Shown here: positions 1,951 to 37,664 of the stretch, piece by piece
Numbering within the stretch: position 1 is the first letter of the stretch
How the letters are laid out: every line of letters starts with the position of its first letter
Assembly: GCA_021846275.1 (NCBI GenBank)
Contig: JAJZBZ010000002.1
Location: 124,001-188,000 of the forward strand
DNA: 64,000 nt
DNA from: Acidobacteriota bacterium
GTDB taxonomy: Bacteria > Acidobacteriota > Terriglobia > Terriglobales > Acidobacteriaceae
Direction of reading: 5' to 3'
Translations under genes and position numbers: made by a program
The notes under the pieces: model-generated
What the model saw: only the letters and a program-made list of their open reading frames with translations
Told to the model about the DNA's origin: nothing
The model's database searches: none

Positions 1951-4242
1951 GTGAGCGGATTTCGGAAGCAGCGGAAGTTTTTTTGTGCGCTGGCCTGTGC
2001 GGCGGCGCTTGGTTGGTGGAACGCGGCGTCGGCCGGTGCCGCGGACACCGGCAAGCCGCTCACCGTCGAAGAGATCTTCGCTCACGGCTCCATGATCGGC
2101 CACGTACCGAGCGGCCTGAACTGGTCGCCCGACGGCTCGCGGCTCACGTTCATGGACGCGCAGGGCATCCTGGAGATCGACCTCACCACGGGCAAGCCTC
2201 GCGTCCTCGTGAGCGCGCGCCAGTTGTCGTCGCTCAGCGGCGGCACGGCCAACGAGCAGGCCGCCGACCATCGCAACCGCTACCATCAGGCGGCGTATCT
2301 GTGGACGCCCGACGGCAGGAGCCTGCTGCTTGACCAGGACGGCGTCTTCTGGCTCTACAACCTGGCCACGCGCCACGCCGTTCAGGTCGCCTCCGCCGGG
2401 GAAGCCTCCGAGGATTCGCCCACCATCTCGCCCAACGGCCGCGCGCTCGCCTTCATCCGCTCGCACGGCGTCGCGGTTGTCGCCCTGCCCGATGCCAACG
2501 GCACGGCCAGCTCGCCCAGCGCAGCCGCTCAGCCCGTCCGCGCGCTCACGCCCGGCTCCAGCGCCACTCTGCTTGACGGCCAGGTGGACTGGGTCTACGA
2601 AGAAGAGCTTGGCGTCCGCAGCAATCTCTTCTGGTCGCCGGACTCAGCACGCATCGCCTACCTTGAAATGGACGAGGCCAAAGTCCCCGAGTACCCCATC
2701 GAAGACTGGCTGCCCACGCACGCCGGCGTTGCCATGCAGCGCTATCCGCAGCCGGGCGACCCGAACCCCGCCGTCCGGCTCGGCGTCGTCTCCGCCAGTG
2801 GCGGCGCGACGACATGGATCCAGCTTCCCGTCCGTCCCAACGAGGACTACATCCCGCGCTTTGGCTGGGTTGATGCCCACACCGTCTGGGCCGAGACACT
2901 CACCCGCGACCACCAGCACAAGACTCTCTGGTTTGCGGACGCCACCACCGGAAAATCCCGCGCCGTGCTGACCGAAACCGATGCAAAGTTCTTCGACGAG
3001 CGTTACGATCTCTTCGTCGGCGACGGCCACATCCTGCTCACAAGCTGGCGCGACGGCCACACCCACCTCTATCTCTACAGCTACGATCCTGCGCAGCCGA
3101 TGGCCGCCGACGCCCGGCTCGATCGCCAGCTCACCCGCGGCGACTTCGAGGTGACGAAACTGCTCGGCGTGGACTCCGCCCACCAGATCGTTTACTTCCA
3201 GTCGAACGAGGGCGACTGGACCCAGCGCCAACTCTGGCAGGTCAGCTTCAGCGGGCAGAAAAAGCCGCTCACCACCGACGCCGGCACTCATGACGGCCAC
3301 TTCGCGCCCACCGGCGGAGCCTTCAGCGACCAGTTCTCCACGCGCACGCAAACGCCCGAGGTGCGCGTCTGCCGCGCCGCCGGCTCGTGCTGCGTCGTCT
3401 GGCAGACCACGGCTCTGGCCGACTACGCACTGCCCGCGCCGCAACCGTTCACGGCCAAGGCCGCCGACGGCACCACGCTCTACGCCACCATCCTGCTGCC
3501 GCCCGGCAAGACCACCCCCGCAAGCGTTCCGCTCATTCTGAATCCCTACGGCGGCCCCGGCGTCATGTCCGTCACCAACCACTGGGGCAACGACGGCTAC
3601 CTTTTTGACATCGTTCTCGCCGAGCATGGCTTCGCCGTGATCCACGCCGACAACCGCGGCATGGACGACCGTGGCCGGGACTTCCAGCAGGTCGCGTATC
3701 ACCACTTCGGACCCACGCAGCTTGCCGACCAGCTCGCGGTCGCCGACGCCGCGCTCGCTGAGTTTCCGCAGCTTGATCCGAAGCGCCAGGGCTGGTGGGG
3801 ATGGAGCTGGGGCGGCACTTTCACCCTCTGGACGCTCACTCACTCCACGCGCTTCCGCGCCGCCGTCGCCGTCGCACCCGTCACCAACTGGCGCGACTAT
3901 GACTCCATCTACACCGAGCGCTACCTCGGCGACCCGCGCACCGATCCCCAGGTCTACCACGATTTCTCGGATGTAAATTTTGCGGCGAATCTTCACGGGC
4001 ACCTGCTGCTCGTCCACGGCACCGGCGACGACAACGTCCACATCGAAAATTCGATCCAGTTCATCCAGCAGATGACCATTCACAACGTGCCGTACTCGTT
4101 CAACGTCTATCCACGCAAAACCCACTCCATCGCCGGCGCCGAGGTTCGCCCGCATCTTTACAACAGCATCCTCGACCACTTCGAGCAGTACCTCATGCCG
4201 CCCGTCACCGCCACTCCGGCCACCGGAGCCACCGGGCAATGA
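1951..4242 (+). CDS. Secreted dipeptidyl peptidase IV (S9B prolyl peptidase)
   Basis: With a GTG start at 1951 the product has 763 residues. This start is preferred because GGGGGAGG lies five bases upstream and the protein then opens with a signal peptide (FRKQRKFFCALACAAALGWW ending near ASAGAA). In-frame codons reach back to 1786, but that part is unlike any export signal. The N-terminal two thirds form the DPP IV beta-propeller, including the Glu motif DWVYEEEL that anchors the substrate's free N-terminus. The C-terminal third is the alpha/beta-hydrolase: GWSWGG with nucleophile Ser619, Asp in GTGDDNVH and His in KTHSI. It removes N-terminal dipeptides, preferring Pro or Ala second, and acts outside the cytoplasm. 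Its stop overlaps the next start. Confidence 0.95.
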   Translation: MSGFRKQRKFFCALACAAALGWWNAASAGAADTGKPLTVEEIFAHGSMIGHVPSGLNWSPDGSRLTFMDAQGILEIDLTTGKPRVLVSARQLSSLSGGTANEQAADHRNRYHQAAYLWTPDGRSLLLDQDGVFWLYNLATRHAVQVASAGEASEDSPTISPNGRALAFIRSHGVAVVALPDANGTASSPSAAAQPVRALTPGSSATLLDGQVDWVYEEELGVRSNLFWSPDSARIAYLEMDEAKVPEYPIEDWLPTHAGVAMQRYPQPGDPNPAVRLGVVSASGGATTWIQLPVRPNEDYIPRFGWVDAHTVWAETLTRDHQHKTLWFADATTGKSRAVLTETDAKFFDERYDLFVGDGHILLTSWRDGHTHLYLYSYDPAQPMAADARLDRQLTRGDFEVTKLLGVDSAHQIVYFQSNEGDWTQRQLWQVSFSGQKKPLTTDAGTHDGHFAPTGGAFSDQFSTRTQTPEVRVCRAAGSCCVVWQTTALADYALPAPQPFTAKAADGTTLYATILLPPGKTTPASVPLILNPYGGPGVMSVTNHWGNDGYLFDIVLAEHGFAVIHADNRGMDDRGRDFQQVAYHHFGPTQLADQLAVADAALAEFPQLDPKRQGWWGWSWGGTFTLWTLTHSTRFRAAVAVAPVTNWRDYDSIYTERYLGDPRTDPQVYHDFSDVNFAANLHGHLLLVHGTGDDNVHIENSIQFIQQMTIHNVPYSFNVYPRKTHSIAGAEVRPHLYNSILDHFEQYLMPPVTATPATGATGQ

Positions 4243-33866: not shown

Positions 33867-35537
33867 TCAGTCCGCCGCGTGGCTGCCCGCCGCCCGATGC
33901 ATCATCTCGGTCATCTTCAGGTAGACGGCATTGCTCCACCCGAAGCCGATCTGGTTTGCCTTGTAACCCGTCAACACATGCACGGAGCTGTCGCCAGCCG
34001 CCACGTTGTATTTCTCCAGAATCGTCCCGTCCTGCGCGTAGCCGCGATCAATCGTCGCCGTGAATTTGCGCGCAATACGCAGCGCGTCTTCACGGTATCC
34101 GCTCGCATCCAGCCCGGCGACGGCAACCCAGTTCGTCGGTGCCCAGCCAAACGGCTCGTCCCACTGCAGACCCGTATTCGTCGCGCTCATCGACAGTCCA
34201 CCTGGGCGCTCAATCACGCCGAGGTGGTGCACAATGCTGGCCGCCTGCGAACGCGTCGCCACCCCGGCCCACAGCGGATAGAACCACGAGATGTACGCAT
34301 AGTGCGACGAACGATTGTGGATGAAATCGTAGTCGGCAAAGACGCCCTGATCCGCGCGCCACAGAAAACGGTTCATGTCCACGCGCCGCCGGTTCGCCAT
34401 CGCACTCCAGTGCTTCGCATCCTGCGGCCTGCCAAGCAGATGCGCAAAGTGGGCCAGATCTTCCTCGTAGCGGAAGAGCAGGCTGTTCAGGCAGACAGGC
34501 GCGTAGTGGTGTGTTGCGCCGGAAAAAGCCTCGAAGCGAAAGCTGGGATCAAAACCCGACTCGCGCATCGCGCGGTCACCCTCATAGAAATCCCGCGTCA
34601 GCCGGTAGCCCTTCACCACGGCGCTGGCGCAGACTGCCGAGCGCGTAATGTCGCAGCTTGTCCTCCGCAGCCGCTCAATCTCCGCCTCGTCCGGATGCTC
34701 GACGGATTTCTCCAGAAAGCCATGATCCTGATCCGGGTGCGCCAGCAGCCAGCGAATGATGTCGGGATAATACGTACTGTCGTCAGCCATCTCCGGCACC
34801 GGGCCGCTGCCGTAATCGTAGTAGCGCGCCAATCCCGTATTGCCCGCCCGGTGCTCAGGCCGCATCCAGGTCGCGTGATCCTTCTCGGCCATTTCATAAG
34901 CTTTTGCCAGCCACTTGTCCGCCTCGTGGCGGCTGGAAAACGCCGACGGATCCTCATAAACGGCGCGAATCATCGAGGTCAGAAACGGCGCTTGCGAACG
35001 CGTCAGGTAATAGGTGCGGTTGGCGTTCAGCGTCGCGCCATAGTGCTCGATCTCGAAGAAGAAGTTGTCCACCATGTTGCGCGCCATCTCCGCGCGATGG
35101 TCGGCCACCAGCCCGAGAATGATGAAGTAGCTGTCCCAGCCATACATCTCGTTGAATCGCCCGCCGGGCACGATATACGGTCGCGGCAGATACAGCAGGC
35201 CGTTCTCGCCCATCTCCTCCGGCATCACGTCACCGAGCTTGTGTATCGGGCGCGGCAGCCGACGGATGGTCACGCCGCAGTGCTCGGCCGTCTTCATCAC
35301 CTCATCCGGCGTCGTGAAATCCGCGGGCAAATAAAGAACCGGGCGCGTCGTCACCTTGCTGTCCACCAGCGAGTGGCAGTCTGTCATTGAGCGCGTGAGC
35401 GTGTTCCAGGTCTCGTGAATATAGGCCAGCGTCGCCGCCGGGTTGGGCGCAGGAGTGCTATGCGCGGGAGATGGATTTGCGGTCACAATCATTGCGATAG
35501 ATACCACCAGAGACGGAAAAAGCTGCAAGCATTTCAT
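33867..35537 (-). CDS. treA: Periplasmic trehalase (GH37)
   Basis: 556 residues that cleave trehalose into two glucoses. Both GH37 signatures are present: PGGRFNEMYGWDSYF (124-138) and QWDEPFGWAP (about 446). The general acid Asp is expected in the SGWDFS-like stretch, here varied to SGFDPSFRFEAFSG in the middle. That stretch deviates from the usual SGWDFSSRW pattern, but Asp is kept. A signal peptide (LFPSLVVSIAMIVTANPSPA) sends it to the periplasm. It would feed on extracellular trehalose or recycle osmoprotectant. A -10-like TACACT ends eight bases before the ATG. Confidence 0.93.
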   Translation of the reverse strand: MKCLQLFPSLVVSIAMIVTANPSPAHSTPAPNPAATLAYIHETWNTLTRSMTDCHSLVDSKVTTRPVLYLPADFTTPDEVMKTAEHCGVTIRRLPRPIHKLGDVMPEEMGENGLLYLPRPYIVPGGRFNEMYGWDSYFIILGLVADHRAEMARNMVDNFFFEIEHYGATLNANRTYYLTRSQAPFLTSMIRAVYEDPSAFSSRHEADKWLAKAYEMAEKDHATWMRPEHRAGNTGLARYYDYGSGPVPEMADDSTYYPDIIRWLLAHPDQDHGFLEKSVEHPDEAEIERLRRTSCDITRSAVCASAVVKGYRLTRDFYEGDRAMRESGFDPSFRFEAFSGATHHYAPVCLNSLLFRYEEDLAHFAHLLGRPQDAKHWSAMANRRRVDMNRFLWRADQGVFADYDFIHNRSSHYAYISWFYPLWAGVATRSQAASIVHHLGVIERPGGLSMSATNTGLQWDEPFGWAPTNWVAVAGLDASGYREDALRIARKFTATIDRGYAQDGTILEKYNVAAGDSSVHVLTGYKANQIGFGWSNAVYLKMTEMMHRAAGSHAAD

Positions 35538-35730: not shown

Positions 35731-35780
35731 CAAAACAAAACCGCCTGAAACTGGAACTGAGTCTTCCAGGCCCAGGCGGC
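35731..35780 (-). terminator. Strong intrinsic terminator on the minus strand
   Basis: Read on the minus strand: CCGCCTG pairs with CAGGCGG and, inside, CTGGAA pairs with TTCCAG around a GACTCAG loop, with a 3x3 internal loop. It is followed by TTTTGTTTTG (35740-35731). There is no minus-strand gene upstream for several kb, so it most likely ends the candidate small RNA. Confidence 0.75.
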
Positions 35781-35979
35781 AAGCCGTCCTGATGGCAGGC
35801 TCTTGTTTTCGGTCCTTCCCGGCGCAGGCAGTGTGCTCCTCAACACGGCTGCTCGCGCACAACTTCAGTTGAATGGGTCAGCAAGAGACCGCAATTGCTG
35901 GAAACCCACCAGTTCCTGAAATTGCCTGGTACTGGACGGTATACCTGCTCCCTTCGCCACGGAGGTCTTGGCGAAGTAC
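35731..35979 (-). ncRNA. Candidate structured small RNA, about 250 nt
   Basis: No protein fits this stretch, yet the minus strand folds strongly. From 5' to 3': H1, CTTCGCCA (35976-35969) with TGGCGAAG (35959-35952), its nine-base loop AGACCTCCG exposing CCTCC. A long-range helix pairs CCGTCC (35939-35934) with GGACGG (35789-35784) and, inside it, AGGC (35927-35924) with GCCT (35800-35797). It encloses H2 (TGGGT/ACCCA plus CAGCAA/TTGCTG, 35908-35874), H3 (CAACTGAAGTTG, 35871-35860) and H4 (35858-35822). An intrinsic terminator ends the unit. It does not match 6S, tmRNA, SRP or RNase P RNA as I know them. A leader of treA (start 35537) is an alternative, though the terminator is 194 bases from that start. 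Confidence 0.5.
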
Positions 35980-36203
35980 AACATAATCCTAAATTTTCCA
36001 ATATCTTACGCAAGTCCTATCGGGTAGATCGAAGGCGTATCATACCCTCACGCAAGCCGCTGTTTTCAGGCATCGTTCCCGCTGAAACAGTTACCCGTCA
36101 AGAGCTTTTGATCACCAGCCCCAACTTCCGATCAAATTCCCGCAAGATTGTATAGACAAGCGCGAAGGCGCCACGTATCATACGTTGCCAGGAGAAAAAC
36201 CTG
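35980..36203. other. Spacer between candidate small RNA and next gene
   Basis: On the minus strand TTGCGT (36013-36008), 16 bases and TAGGAT (35991-35986) could be the small RNA promoter, a weak match. On the plus strand TATAGA near 36152-36157 could serve the gene at 36204. I see no protein here. GC content is clearly lower than in the flanking genes. Confidence 0.3.
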
Positions 36204-37664
36204 TTGCCGGGTGTCGCGAAATCACAAACTGACGCTTCCGAGTCCGTCTCCAGCGGGCAGCGCGGCATTCCCTTTCAGCCTGAATCAGCCGAAGACTTCG
36301 CCGTCGTTCGCGAGCAACTGGATCGAATCCTCGCCCATCCGCTTTTTTCGAACAGCAAGCGCTACCCCAGCCTGCTCCGCTTCGTCGTCGAGCAGACACT
36401 TGATGGCAATGCGGATCAGCTCAAGGAGCGACTGATTGGCATTGAGGTCTTTGGGCGCGCGCCGGACTACGACGCCAATGCCGACCCGGTCGTGCGCGTG
36501 ACGGCGGGCGAGACCCGCAAGCGTCTGGCGCAGTACTACTACGAGCCGGAACACGCGGGCGAACTGCGCATCGAGCTCCCGACCGGAGCCTATCTGCCGC
36601 AGTTTGTCCGCCCCGCCGCAGAGGCCACGAGCCAGGAAACGCAGAGTCAGAATCTGCTGAGCCAGAATTCGTCCAATTCAACGTCGCCCAGCCAGCAAAC
36701 CCCATCGCGGGCAACTGAGCCGCTGCTCATGCCCGCTCCGCAGTCCTCACACGCGCATCCGCTTGCCGGGCACATGCCGTGGGACTTTCCTCAGTTCTGG
36801 CATCCTCGGCATCCTCTGCAGCCTGGGCGTGGCAGTCATCACTACTCGGGAACGACGGTTCACCTTGTGGTCACTGTGTTGATGGTGGTGGCCGCCCTGG
36901 GAGCGGGTATTTTTGCCGGATACCGCCTGCATGCGCCCCGTCCGCAGGCACCTGTGGATCACACGGTGGAAGACTTCTGGCAGCCGGTAACGGTCGGCGA
37001 CTCCACCGTGACCATCTGCCTCGGCGAACCGGCGCGCGACACCAGCGACGACGGTGACTGGTCCAAGCCAATCCCGCATACGGTTTCCTCCGAGCCGCTC
37101 TACGTCCACATTCATCTTTCCGGCCTCTTTGCGCTGGCCGACGTGGTCACGCTCACGCGGGTCGAGGTGCCGCTGCTTGCCCAACACAAGCCGTTCCGCG
37201 TCTCCGCAGCCTCTGAGGCCAGCTTTGGCGAGCTGCGCGAAGGCCCGGTCGTGCTGATTGGAGCGTTTGACAATCTCTGGGTCATGCGTCTCAGCCGCGA
37301 TCTCCGATTCGGCTTTGACTCCAGCAACGGCACGGCGCTGATCGTGGACCGAAAGAGCAACAAGCGCACGACATGGGCATCGGACTGGGATCAGCCCTTT
37401 GAACGGCTCTCAAAAGACTACGCGATCATCGCGCGCTTCCGCGATCAGGTGACAGGGCAGCCGGTGATGATGGTCTCCGGCATCTCGGAAGAAGGGACAG
37501 AAGCCGCCGGCGAGCTAATCTCGAACGCAAACGACCTAAAGCAGTTGCTGAAAAATGCGCCGCCCAACTGGCGCTCCATGAACATGGAAGCCGTCATCGA
37601 AACCCAGGTCATCGAGGGCCACGCCGGACCGCCAACGGTACGCGCGGTCGAATTCTGGCCCTGA
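36204..37664 (+). CDS. Single-pass membrane protein with acidobacterial regulator-type N-terminal domain
   Basis: 486 residues from TTG 36204, supported by AGGAG nine bases upstream. Residues 30-135 carry a domain common in acidobacterial regulators, seen ahead of TPR or adenylate-cyclase modules: RILAHPLFSNSKRYPSLLRF, LKERLIGIEVFGRAPDYD, VVRVTAGETRKRLAQYYYE and IELPTGAYLPQF. It resembles a winged-helix DNA-binding region but is not proven to bind DNA. A Ser/Gln linker (140-215) leads to one membrane helix (218-240). The C-terminal half (about 250-486) is a periplasmic-side domain I do not recognise. The order suggests a one-component membrane sensor-regulator. Confidence 0.65.
   Translation: MPGVAKSQTDASESVSSGQRGIPFQPESAEDFAVVREQLDRILAHPLFSNSKRYPSLLRFVVEQTLDGNADQLKERLIGIEVFGRAPDYDANADPVVRVTAGETRKRLAQYYYEPEHAGELRIELPTGAYLPQFVRPAAEATSQETQSQNLLSQNSSNSTSPSQQTPSRATEPLLMPAPQSSHAHPLAGHMPWDFPQFWHPRHPLQPGRGSHHYSGTTVHLVVTVLMVVAALGAGIFAGYRLHAPRPQAPVDHTVEDFWQPVTVGDSTVTICLGEPARDTSDDGDWSKPIPHTVSSEPLYVHIHLSGLFALADVVTLTRVEVPLLAQHKPFRVSAASEASFGELREGPVVLIGAFDNLWVMRLSRDLRFGFDSSNGTALIVDRKSNKRTTWASDWDQPFERLSKDYAIIARFRDQVTGQPVMMVSGISEEGTEAAGELISNANDLKQLLKNAPPNWRSMNMEAVIETQVIEGHAGPPTVRAVEFWP

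Follow-up and report, generated by a model that had tools for sequence, protein, structure and literature searches.

Does the protein-free gap between a trehalase gene and a divergent gene of the opposite strand hold an independent small RNA and, if so, what might control it and on what might it act? Within the window (the whole 64,000-nt stretch of DNA that was analysed), the initial annotation had placed a candidate small RNA with its own terminator on the minus strand of a 666-bp gap lacking any protein. This gap is real and extends from the start of the trehalase gene (position 35537) to a plus-strand gene (36204); as had also been claimed, no minus-strand gene lies directly upstream of the RNA, the upstream gene being on the plus strand. 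By computation, the locus holds a conserved RNA with its fold, promoter and terminator, and this RNA is linked to the divergent plus-strand gene, referred to here as cl0 (Table 1). The minus strand from 35981 to 35732 appears to encode a structured RNA that has a promoter and a terminator of its own and whose 5' end is predicted from the position of the -10 element to lie near 35977-35980. The idea of a branched small RNA that is independent and ends at a terminator of its own is supported by homologs in 15/15 same-genus genomes, strong covariation in two separately aligned groups, reciprocal model matches, a conserved promoter and the lack of any Rfam match, and we regard the reality of the RNA as nearly certain.

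Table 1. Features of the RNA locus and of the adjacent divergent gene (window coordinates; promoters and operators are predictions).
Feature	Position	Strand	Basis or remark
Structured RNA	35732-35981	-	Limits taken from the R1 and R2 covariance-model matches
P1, 8-bp 5' hairpin	35952-35976	-	98.4% of cells paired, 4/8 pairs changed on both sides (group 1)
P1 loop ACCUCCG, anti-Shine-Dalgarno-like	35960-35966	-	Motif conserved among homologs
P2 5' strand GCAGG, outer closing helix	35944-35948	-	Partner 35795-35799
P2 3' strand CCTGC	35795-35799	-	Partner 35944-35948
P3 5' strand, GUCC here	35934-35937	-	Placed by eye in this sequence
P3 3' strand GGAC	35812-35815	-	Partner of P3 5' strand
P4 arm, outer helix GCAATTTCAG/CTGAAGTTGT	35859-35925	-	Changes on both sides of pairs
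P4 apical motif GCGGUCU	35886-35892	-	Kept in 15/15 homologs
P5 arm	35822-35858	-	10/15 pairs changed on both sides (group 1)
P5 loop GAGGAG, Shine-Dalgarno-like	35836-35841	-	GAGGAGC in 15/15 homologs
Intrinsic terminator hairpin GCCGCCTG...CAGGCGG	35741-35780	-	Paired in both groups
Terminator U-tract TTTTGTTTT	35732-35740	-	Sequence
RNA promoter -10 TAGGAT	35986-35991	-	Aligned in 15 genomes
RNA promoter -35 TTGCGT	36008-36013	-	TTG and 16-nt spacer in 15/15 (pattern defined by us)
Promoter element TACCCGATAGGACTTG	36011-36026	-	One mismatch to TACCCGATNGAACTTG
Operator-like GTATGATAC, about -64	36037-36045	-	GTATNNNAC in 15/15
Regulator promoter TAGACA-N17-TATCAT	36153-36181	+	Consensus scan, 1 found vs 0.4 expected
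Operator-like GTATCATAC over regulator-promoter -10	36175-36183	+	GTATSATAC before cl0 in 15/15
cl0, unannotated divergent gene	36204-37664	+	Start codon uncertain; adjacent and divergent in 15/15

Homologs and distribution of the RNA

A DNA search of this genome and 60 relatives (61 genomes; the named relatives are metagenome bins) yielded seven same-genus homologs with 74-77% identity, that of G012 in two pieces, together with a 37-nt piece in G011. Matches at E up to 1 occurred in 54 of the 61 genomes, and those beyond this locus, the seven homologs and the G011 piece were short and were taken as chance. Divergent homologs were recognised in G002, G004, G006, G009, G010 and G011 by reading the sites of the promoter element. 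The sequences were aligned and folded separately as group 1 (8 sequences, alignment A5) and group 2 (7 sequences, alignment A9), and the covariance models R1 and R2 were built from group 1 only and group 2 only, respectively. G001, missed by both the DNA and the promoter searches, was found by R1 alone, and its locus then proved to carry the same promoter and the same neighbour, cl0.

The two models recovered each other's members. R1 found six of the seven group-2 sequences at E 3e-7 or better (G010, 6e-21; G004, 1e-13; G011, 1e-12; G001, 1e-11; G002, 2e-9; G009, 3e-7), the remaining one, G006, giving only E 0.05 locally and no match under strict filters; conversely, R2 found all eight group-1 members (E 6e-29 to 1.2e-12). 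At the present locus R1, whose training set includes this sequence, scored 244.4 bits, and R2, built without it, scored 75.1 bits (E 5.5e-21).

When R2 was run over 398 family genomes (79 genera), matches at E up to 1 were obtained in 35 genomes, strong ones (E 3e-11 or better) in the 15 genomes of this genus and weak ones (E 0.001 or worse) in the other 20. Fifteen of those 20 weak loci were read, and most look like coding sequence. R1 gave a match in 9 of 200 family genomes, of which 7 were strong and belonged without exception to this genus; G006 was missed. Among 299 class genomes R2 gave four matches at E up to 0.01, two from the same genus plus G142 and G223. Neither of the latter was counted: G142 (L158, E 1.4e-5) has a similar terminator and such a promoter was not seen there, and G223 (L097) offers only the hairpin GGGAAGAGGAGCCC. 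This hairpin (L097:1501-1527, minus strand) is identical to the apex of group-2 P5, and R2 found no more at that place. Also left out of the counts were two weak R1 matches (L084 and L085, rescored), short antisense terminator matches of R2, and a weak match at window positions 3256-3377 (E 0.1); in G010 a second R2 match corresponds to the antisense terminator (E 0.03). The RNA is present in 15/15 same-genus genomes examined, with one strong copy each, and among the genomes sampled strong matches are confined to one genus, although weak relatives may have been lost because stricter filters were applied to samples of more than 40 genomes.

Rfam 15 contained no match over the RNA, either at the gathering threshold or at E up to 10; at the latter level two matches to snoRNA families (E 2.2 and 5.8) fell outside the RNA. 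The 17 homolog loci likewise gave no Rfam match at E up to 0.5, in keeping with the initial remark that the RNA resembles no common bacterial RNA.

Conserved fold and covariation

The same order of elements was obtained in both groups: P1, P2, P3, P4 (bearing an inner stem and the motif GCGGUCU), P5 (with the GAGGAG loop) and the terminator, with a junction closed by P2/P3 and holding two arms, P4 and P5. The proposed 8-bp 5' hairpin, which is P1, and the strong minus-strand terminator hairpin followed by TTTTGTTTT are both present, the latter with 96.9% of cells paired in group 1 and 95.2% in group 2. Of the claim that a long-range helix encloses three hairpins, the further hairpins held, but the junction contains two arms and is closed by another helix. 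The helix originally suggested (CCGTCC/GGACGG plus AGGC/GCCT) exists as letters, but its pairing (75.0%) is no better than that of shuffled alignments (74.6%); in the 8-homolog alignment, 332 of 500 shuffles pair as highly as CCGTCC/GGACGG, and no covariation was detected. It was consequently dropped, P2 and P3 being the conserved closing helices.

For P2, the share of paired cells is 95.0% in group 1, where no pair has changed on both sides, and 85.7% in group 2, where one of five pairs has; since group 1 shows almost no variation in this helix, P2 is supported chiefly by where it lies and by the group-2 sequences. Pairs changed on both sides amount to 1/6 in group 1 and 7/10 in group 2 for P3, and, in group 1, to 6/10, 1/3 and 3/6 for the outer, middle and inner parts of P4. 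While the stems vary, the apical motifs GCGGTCT, GAGGAGC and CTCCG stay fixed in 15/15 sequences. The P1 loop carries CTCCG in all 15 homologs and the longer ACCTCC in 12; this anti-Shine-Dalgarno motif is open in the group-2 consensus and open save for one isolated pair in group 1, where RNAalifold placed a single G-C pair inside the loop (none in group 2), and in single-sequence ensembles the CTCCG stretch is unpaired with a mean probability of only 0.43-0.85. A kissing interaction between the P1 and P5 loops was considered by eye and rejected, as it would comprise only 4 bp.

Comparison with shuffled controls and a look for compensatory changes in relatives, two of the checks proposed at the outset, both favoured the RNA. 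The 250-nt fold has a free energy of -106.3 kcal/mol, outside the shuffled range (mean -88.0; z -3.5, 0/200 shuffles as good), and the three homologs that were folded against shuffles gave z values of -4.0 (0/200), -3.4 (1/200) and -2.5 (2/200). Pairs changed on both sides numbered 26 of 69 in group 1, against 12.0 (sd 2.1) in shuffled alignments, and 39 of 73 in group 2, against 17.1 (sd 2.7), a level reached in 0/500 shuffles in each case, although changes counted in sequences that are related to one another cannot be taken as independent events. Overall, 91.7% (group 1) and 89.3% (group 2) of cells are paired, a measure that is favoured by the prediction of the structures from the same MAFFT alignments that served for the pair counts; the independent checks on the fold are the shuffles and the reciprocal models. 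Before pair counting and R1 modelling, the P1-loop pair and a six-pair helix involving the U-tract were removed by hand from the group-1 RNAalifold structure, and in alignment A5 the G007 row carries a one-base shift at P2. No counts rest on the Infernal alignments A7 and A8 (the latter without G006), because the divergent P5 is misplaced in them.

The divergent gene cl0

The cl0 gene lies divergently upstream of the RNA in 14 of the 15 genomes according to clustering, and in the fifteenth, G003, according to tblastn (92% identity to the G005 copy). Its product has no sequence match in Pfam, NCBIfam or the PDB, and its layout comprises a winged helix-turn-helix (wHTH)-like N-terminal domain, a transmembrane (TM) helix at about residues 219-240 and a C-terminal domain of unassigned fold. 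Because the full-length model was poor (mean pLDDT 43.6), the N-terminal 114 residues were folded alone, from 8/9 sequences, and of the five AF2 models, with mean pLDDT values of 85.4, 62.9, 52.2, 47.7 and 47.5, only the first was confident. With VIA-align, the nine best rows were all OmpR/PhoB-type DNA-binding domains (Z 5.4-6.2 over 83-89 residues), although a Z of about 6 can still arise from a chance arrangement; lower in the list came ScpB-like proteins, with Z 5.0-5.2, and globins, with Z up to 4.4. Foldseek gave no significant match for the domain (best E 3.0), and a search of viral contigs for it returned nothing. On this modelling, the N-terminal domain is probably an OmpR/PhoB-like wHTH.

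The 19-residue hydropathy windows are highest at residues 218-239 (peak 2.47, among the top four windows), and the low-confidence full-length model has a helix at 219-243, so that a single predicted TM helix separates the DNA-binding-like from the C-terminal domain. Relatives of the C-terminal domain occur in 34 of 120 family genomes, and proteins of the cl0 type (wHTH-like domain, TM helix, C-terminal domain) seemingly form a large family in Acidobacteriaceae.

Promoter, operator-like sites and the wider promoter module

In all 15 genomes the RNA has, as judged by sequence, both a promoter and a terminator of its own. The arrangement TTG-N16-TAGGAT fits a promoter of the sigma70 type; an ECF-type alternative with GAACTT as -35 was set aside, this motif lying, by eye, about 20 nt from the -10. 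A simple consensus scan listed neither the terminator nor the promoter of the RNA, and its two terminator-like matches elsewhere equal the shuffled mean (2.1). Of the 15 genus genomes, 13 contain the promoter element TACCCGATNGAACTTG with up to one mismatch (12 exactly; the present genome once, with one mismatch), and G001 and G012 carry TACCCGAAAG variants. Outside the genus the pattern occurs in 10 genomes, always with one mismatch, compared with 8 for the reversed control, and only one of these matches, in G016, later proved to be part of the module described below. The ten matches in named genomes fall in nine Acidobacteria/Acidobacteriaceae metagenome bins and a Selenomonadaceae bin (L074), which points to Acidobacteriaceae as the probable family of the present genome.

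Upstream of the RNA, GTATNNNAC is located at -63 to -65 in 15/15 genomes; it is a perfect GTATSATAC in 8/15 and imperfect in 7/7 group-2 genomes. The putative regulator promoter includes a TGTC(T/C)A block conserved in the genus alignment. GTATSATAC occurs at four places in the present genome (control pattern, one), two of them at this locus. The third (L124:1501, C4:8875) shortly precedes an aminotransferase-like gene, which may be another target of the regulator, and the fourth lies between ATPase-like and transposase-like frames, all these names being taken from reading translations.

Among 398 family genomes, five contain the combination operator-N60-90-TACCCGATNNNNCYTG, at six sites in total (none for the reversed control): it occurs in 3/3 genomes of genus g3, one of them twice, and in 2 of about 50 of g9, by our own count. 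At five of these six sites outside the genus, cl0 is divergent and adjacent (57-73% identical), and in the same five (g3/g9) a shorter RNA-like stretch comes after the promoter and closes with GATTGCGGCTC...CGCCC and a T-run, which suggests that the promoter-regulator pair stays in place from genus to genus as the RNA beside it changes. At the sixth site, in G158 (L160, minus strand from 1584), the operator-promoter pair precedes a secreted-hydrolase-like frame and no RNA; this frame resembles a secreted glycoside hydrolase lipoprotein and might hint at a carbohydrate-related regulon. G006 has a second composite promoter (GTATCAAAC, TACCCGATGGAACTTG and TAGGAT; L062:1501-1760), 243 nt before an Oar/TonB-dependent receptor-like gene, and no sRNA hairpin was seen after this copy; as with the hydrolase, the name comes from reading the translation. 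Taken together, the G158 and G006 promoter copies suggest a trans-acting regulator that may have several targets.

Proposed mechanism and competing explanations

From the conserved elements we infer transcription of the RNA, DNA binding by cl0, control of the RNA by cl0, and a pairing mechanism, which combine as follows. The RNA would be made from its own sigma70-like promoter and ended at the intrinsic terminator. The membrane-anchored, ToxR/CadC-like cl0 would sense an extracytoplasmic signal and bind the GTATSATAC/TACCCGAT elements as putative sites, repressing its own gene through the site over its -10 and activating the RNA through the sites upstream of the -35. Once folded into P1, a junction closed by P2/P3 and bearing the P4 and P5 arms, and the terminator, the RNA would silence target mRNAs whose Shine-Dalgarno regions pair with ACCUCC in the P1 loop; the GCGGUCU and GAGGAG loops, likewise conserved, would help to choose targets or to bind protein. 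Binding of the operator by cl0 is proposed from position, and the large number of cl0 relatives (34/120 family genomes) argues against this link; even so, we consider control of the RNA by cl0 fairly probable. Silencing through the anti-Shine-Dalgarno loop is put forward more tentatively, at somewhat less than even chances, ACCUCC being intact in only 12/15 homologs. For the chain as a whole, in which a trans-acting sRNA of about 250 nt is the output of the membrane regulator cl0 and silences via the P1 loop, we would put the chances at close to, and slightly under, even.

The conserved loops could also be read in another way, which we judge rather unlikely: the GAGGAG and GCGGUCU loops might titrate a protein or the 30S subunit, with no mRNA pairing involved. 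The invariance of the three apical motifs on variable stems would suit such a binding RNA, as would the similarity of GAGGAG to a Shine-Dalgarno sequence and of ACCUCC to the 16S tail. CsrA is the one well-known partner of GGA loops, but a search for it (PF02599) in 21 genomes, 13 from this genus, gave no match, while 3 of 14 control genomes were positive; a CsrA sponge was accordingly set aside.

A broader variant appears improbable. Here the membrane wHTH sensor and its divergent promoter would be the stable part of a module and the RNA the part that can be exchanged, the long RNA acting on the translation machinery through its two ribosome-like loops. If true, one genus would have a three-way-junction RNA with anti-Shine-Dalgarno and Shine-Dalgarno-like loops, and two other genera a much shorter, apparently unrelated RNA.

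The genes on the other side bear on whether the RNA instead serves the trehalase gene downstream as a cis-acting leader, either riboswitch or attenuator. In the present genome the trehalase gene (PF01204; window 33867-35537, minus strand) is directly downstream, on the same strand, and begins about 190 nt past the terminator, and the next long gene belongs to the trehalase cluster in six of the eight group-1 genomes (this one and five others). However, the neighbouring gene on this side is convergent in G003 and G005 of group 1 and, as a member of another cluster, in four of the seven group-2 genomes, and the RNA is kept in all of them; the side away from cl0 is variable and the cl0 side constant, the invariable partner being the upstream cl0 gene. 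A leader function is thus very unlikely. The trehalase has no obvious part in the regulator-RNA module.

Still less credible is a small protein encoded in the region, possibly with a leaderless start at the 5' end. Ten of the 15 homologs do have a start codon (ATG, GTG or TTG) where the model begins, followed by frames of up to 71 codons, but the start is absent in the other five, G008 stops early, and the length of the longest closed sense frame varies between 16 and 71 codons. Moreover, in six pairs compared the differences show no concentration at the third position of codons, few of them being synonymous (2/11 in the closest full-frame pair), and the compensatory changes track the RNA fold; start, length and codon positions thus leave the coding reading unsupported.

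Descent from a housekeeping RNA, for example as a diverged 6S copy, suggested by the similar size and by the RF00013 (6S) model finding nothing in 19 of 21 genomes, this one included, is largely refuted and the least probable of all, since in the two genomes where 6S was found, G002 and G003, it is a separate gene (contigs C77 and C139) beside this RNA (C7 and C23), which moreover has a branched junction, an intrinsic terminator and strong matches in only one genus among the genomes sampled.

Comparison with known systems

ToxR and CadC are membrane one-component regulators with a wHTH N-terminal domain, a single TM helix and a C-terminal domain beyond it. The cl0 protein resembles them in its probable wHTH-like N-terminal domain, one predicted TM helix and C-terminal domain, but differs in having no Pfam or NCBIfam match and in that its constant divergent partner is an RNA. 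The CsrB/RsmZ sponges are characterised by GGA-bearing hairpin loops, and one such loop is present here too, but the genomes searched yielded no CsrA.

No earlier description of this RNA was found in the literature searched or in Rfam. The RNA family is new and well supported, and its candidate regulator, operator and seed are all testable. Few RNAs have been described so far in Acidobacteria, the table of a 2022 review giving four distinct annotated sRNAs for the phylum (PMC9029176). Acido-1 and Acido-Lenti-1 (RF01686 and RF01687) are likewise structured RNA candidates in Acidobacteria (PMC2864571), but the Rfam searches reported above matched neither this region nor the homolog loci.

The closest parallel for the proposed mode of action is offered by alpha-r14, NfeR1 and related Rhizobiales sRNAs, which carry anti-Shine-Dalgarno motifs in hairpin loops on variable stems; such loops are a known silencing device, NfeR1 and its relatives blocking ribosome-binding sites (PMC3927594, PMC10746234). 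In these sRNAs CCUCCUCCC occupies three hairpin loops in alpha-r14 and SmelA075, and four in SmelA099 (PMC3927594, PMC10746234). The three hairpins each with a CCUCCUCCC loop have no counterpart in the present RNA, where one loop with ACCUCC(G) was found. The RNA described here shares with alpha-r14/NfeR1 the anti-Shine-Dalgarno loop motif, the variable stems and a conserved upstream promoter element, and differs in its single ACCUCC loop, its large branched junction and its occurrence in another phylum.
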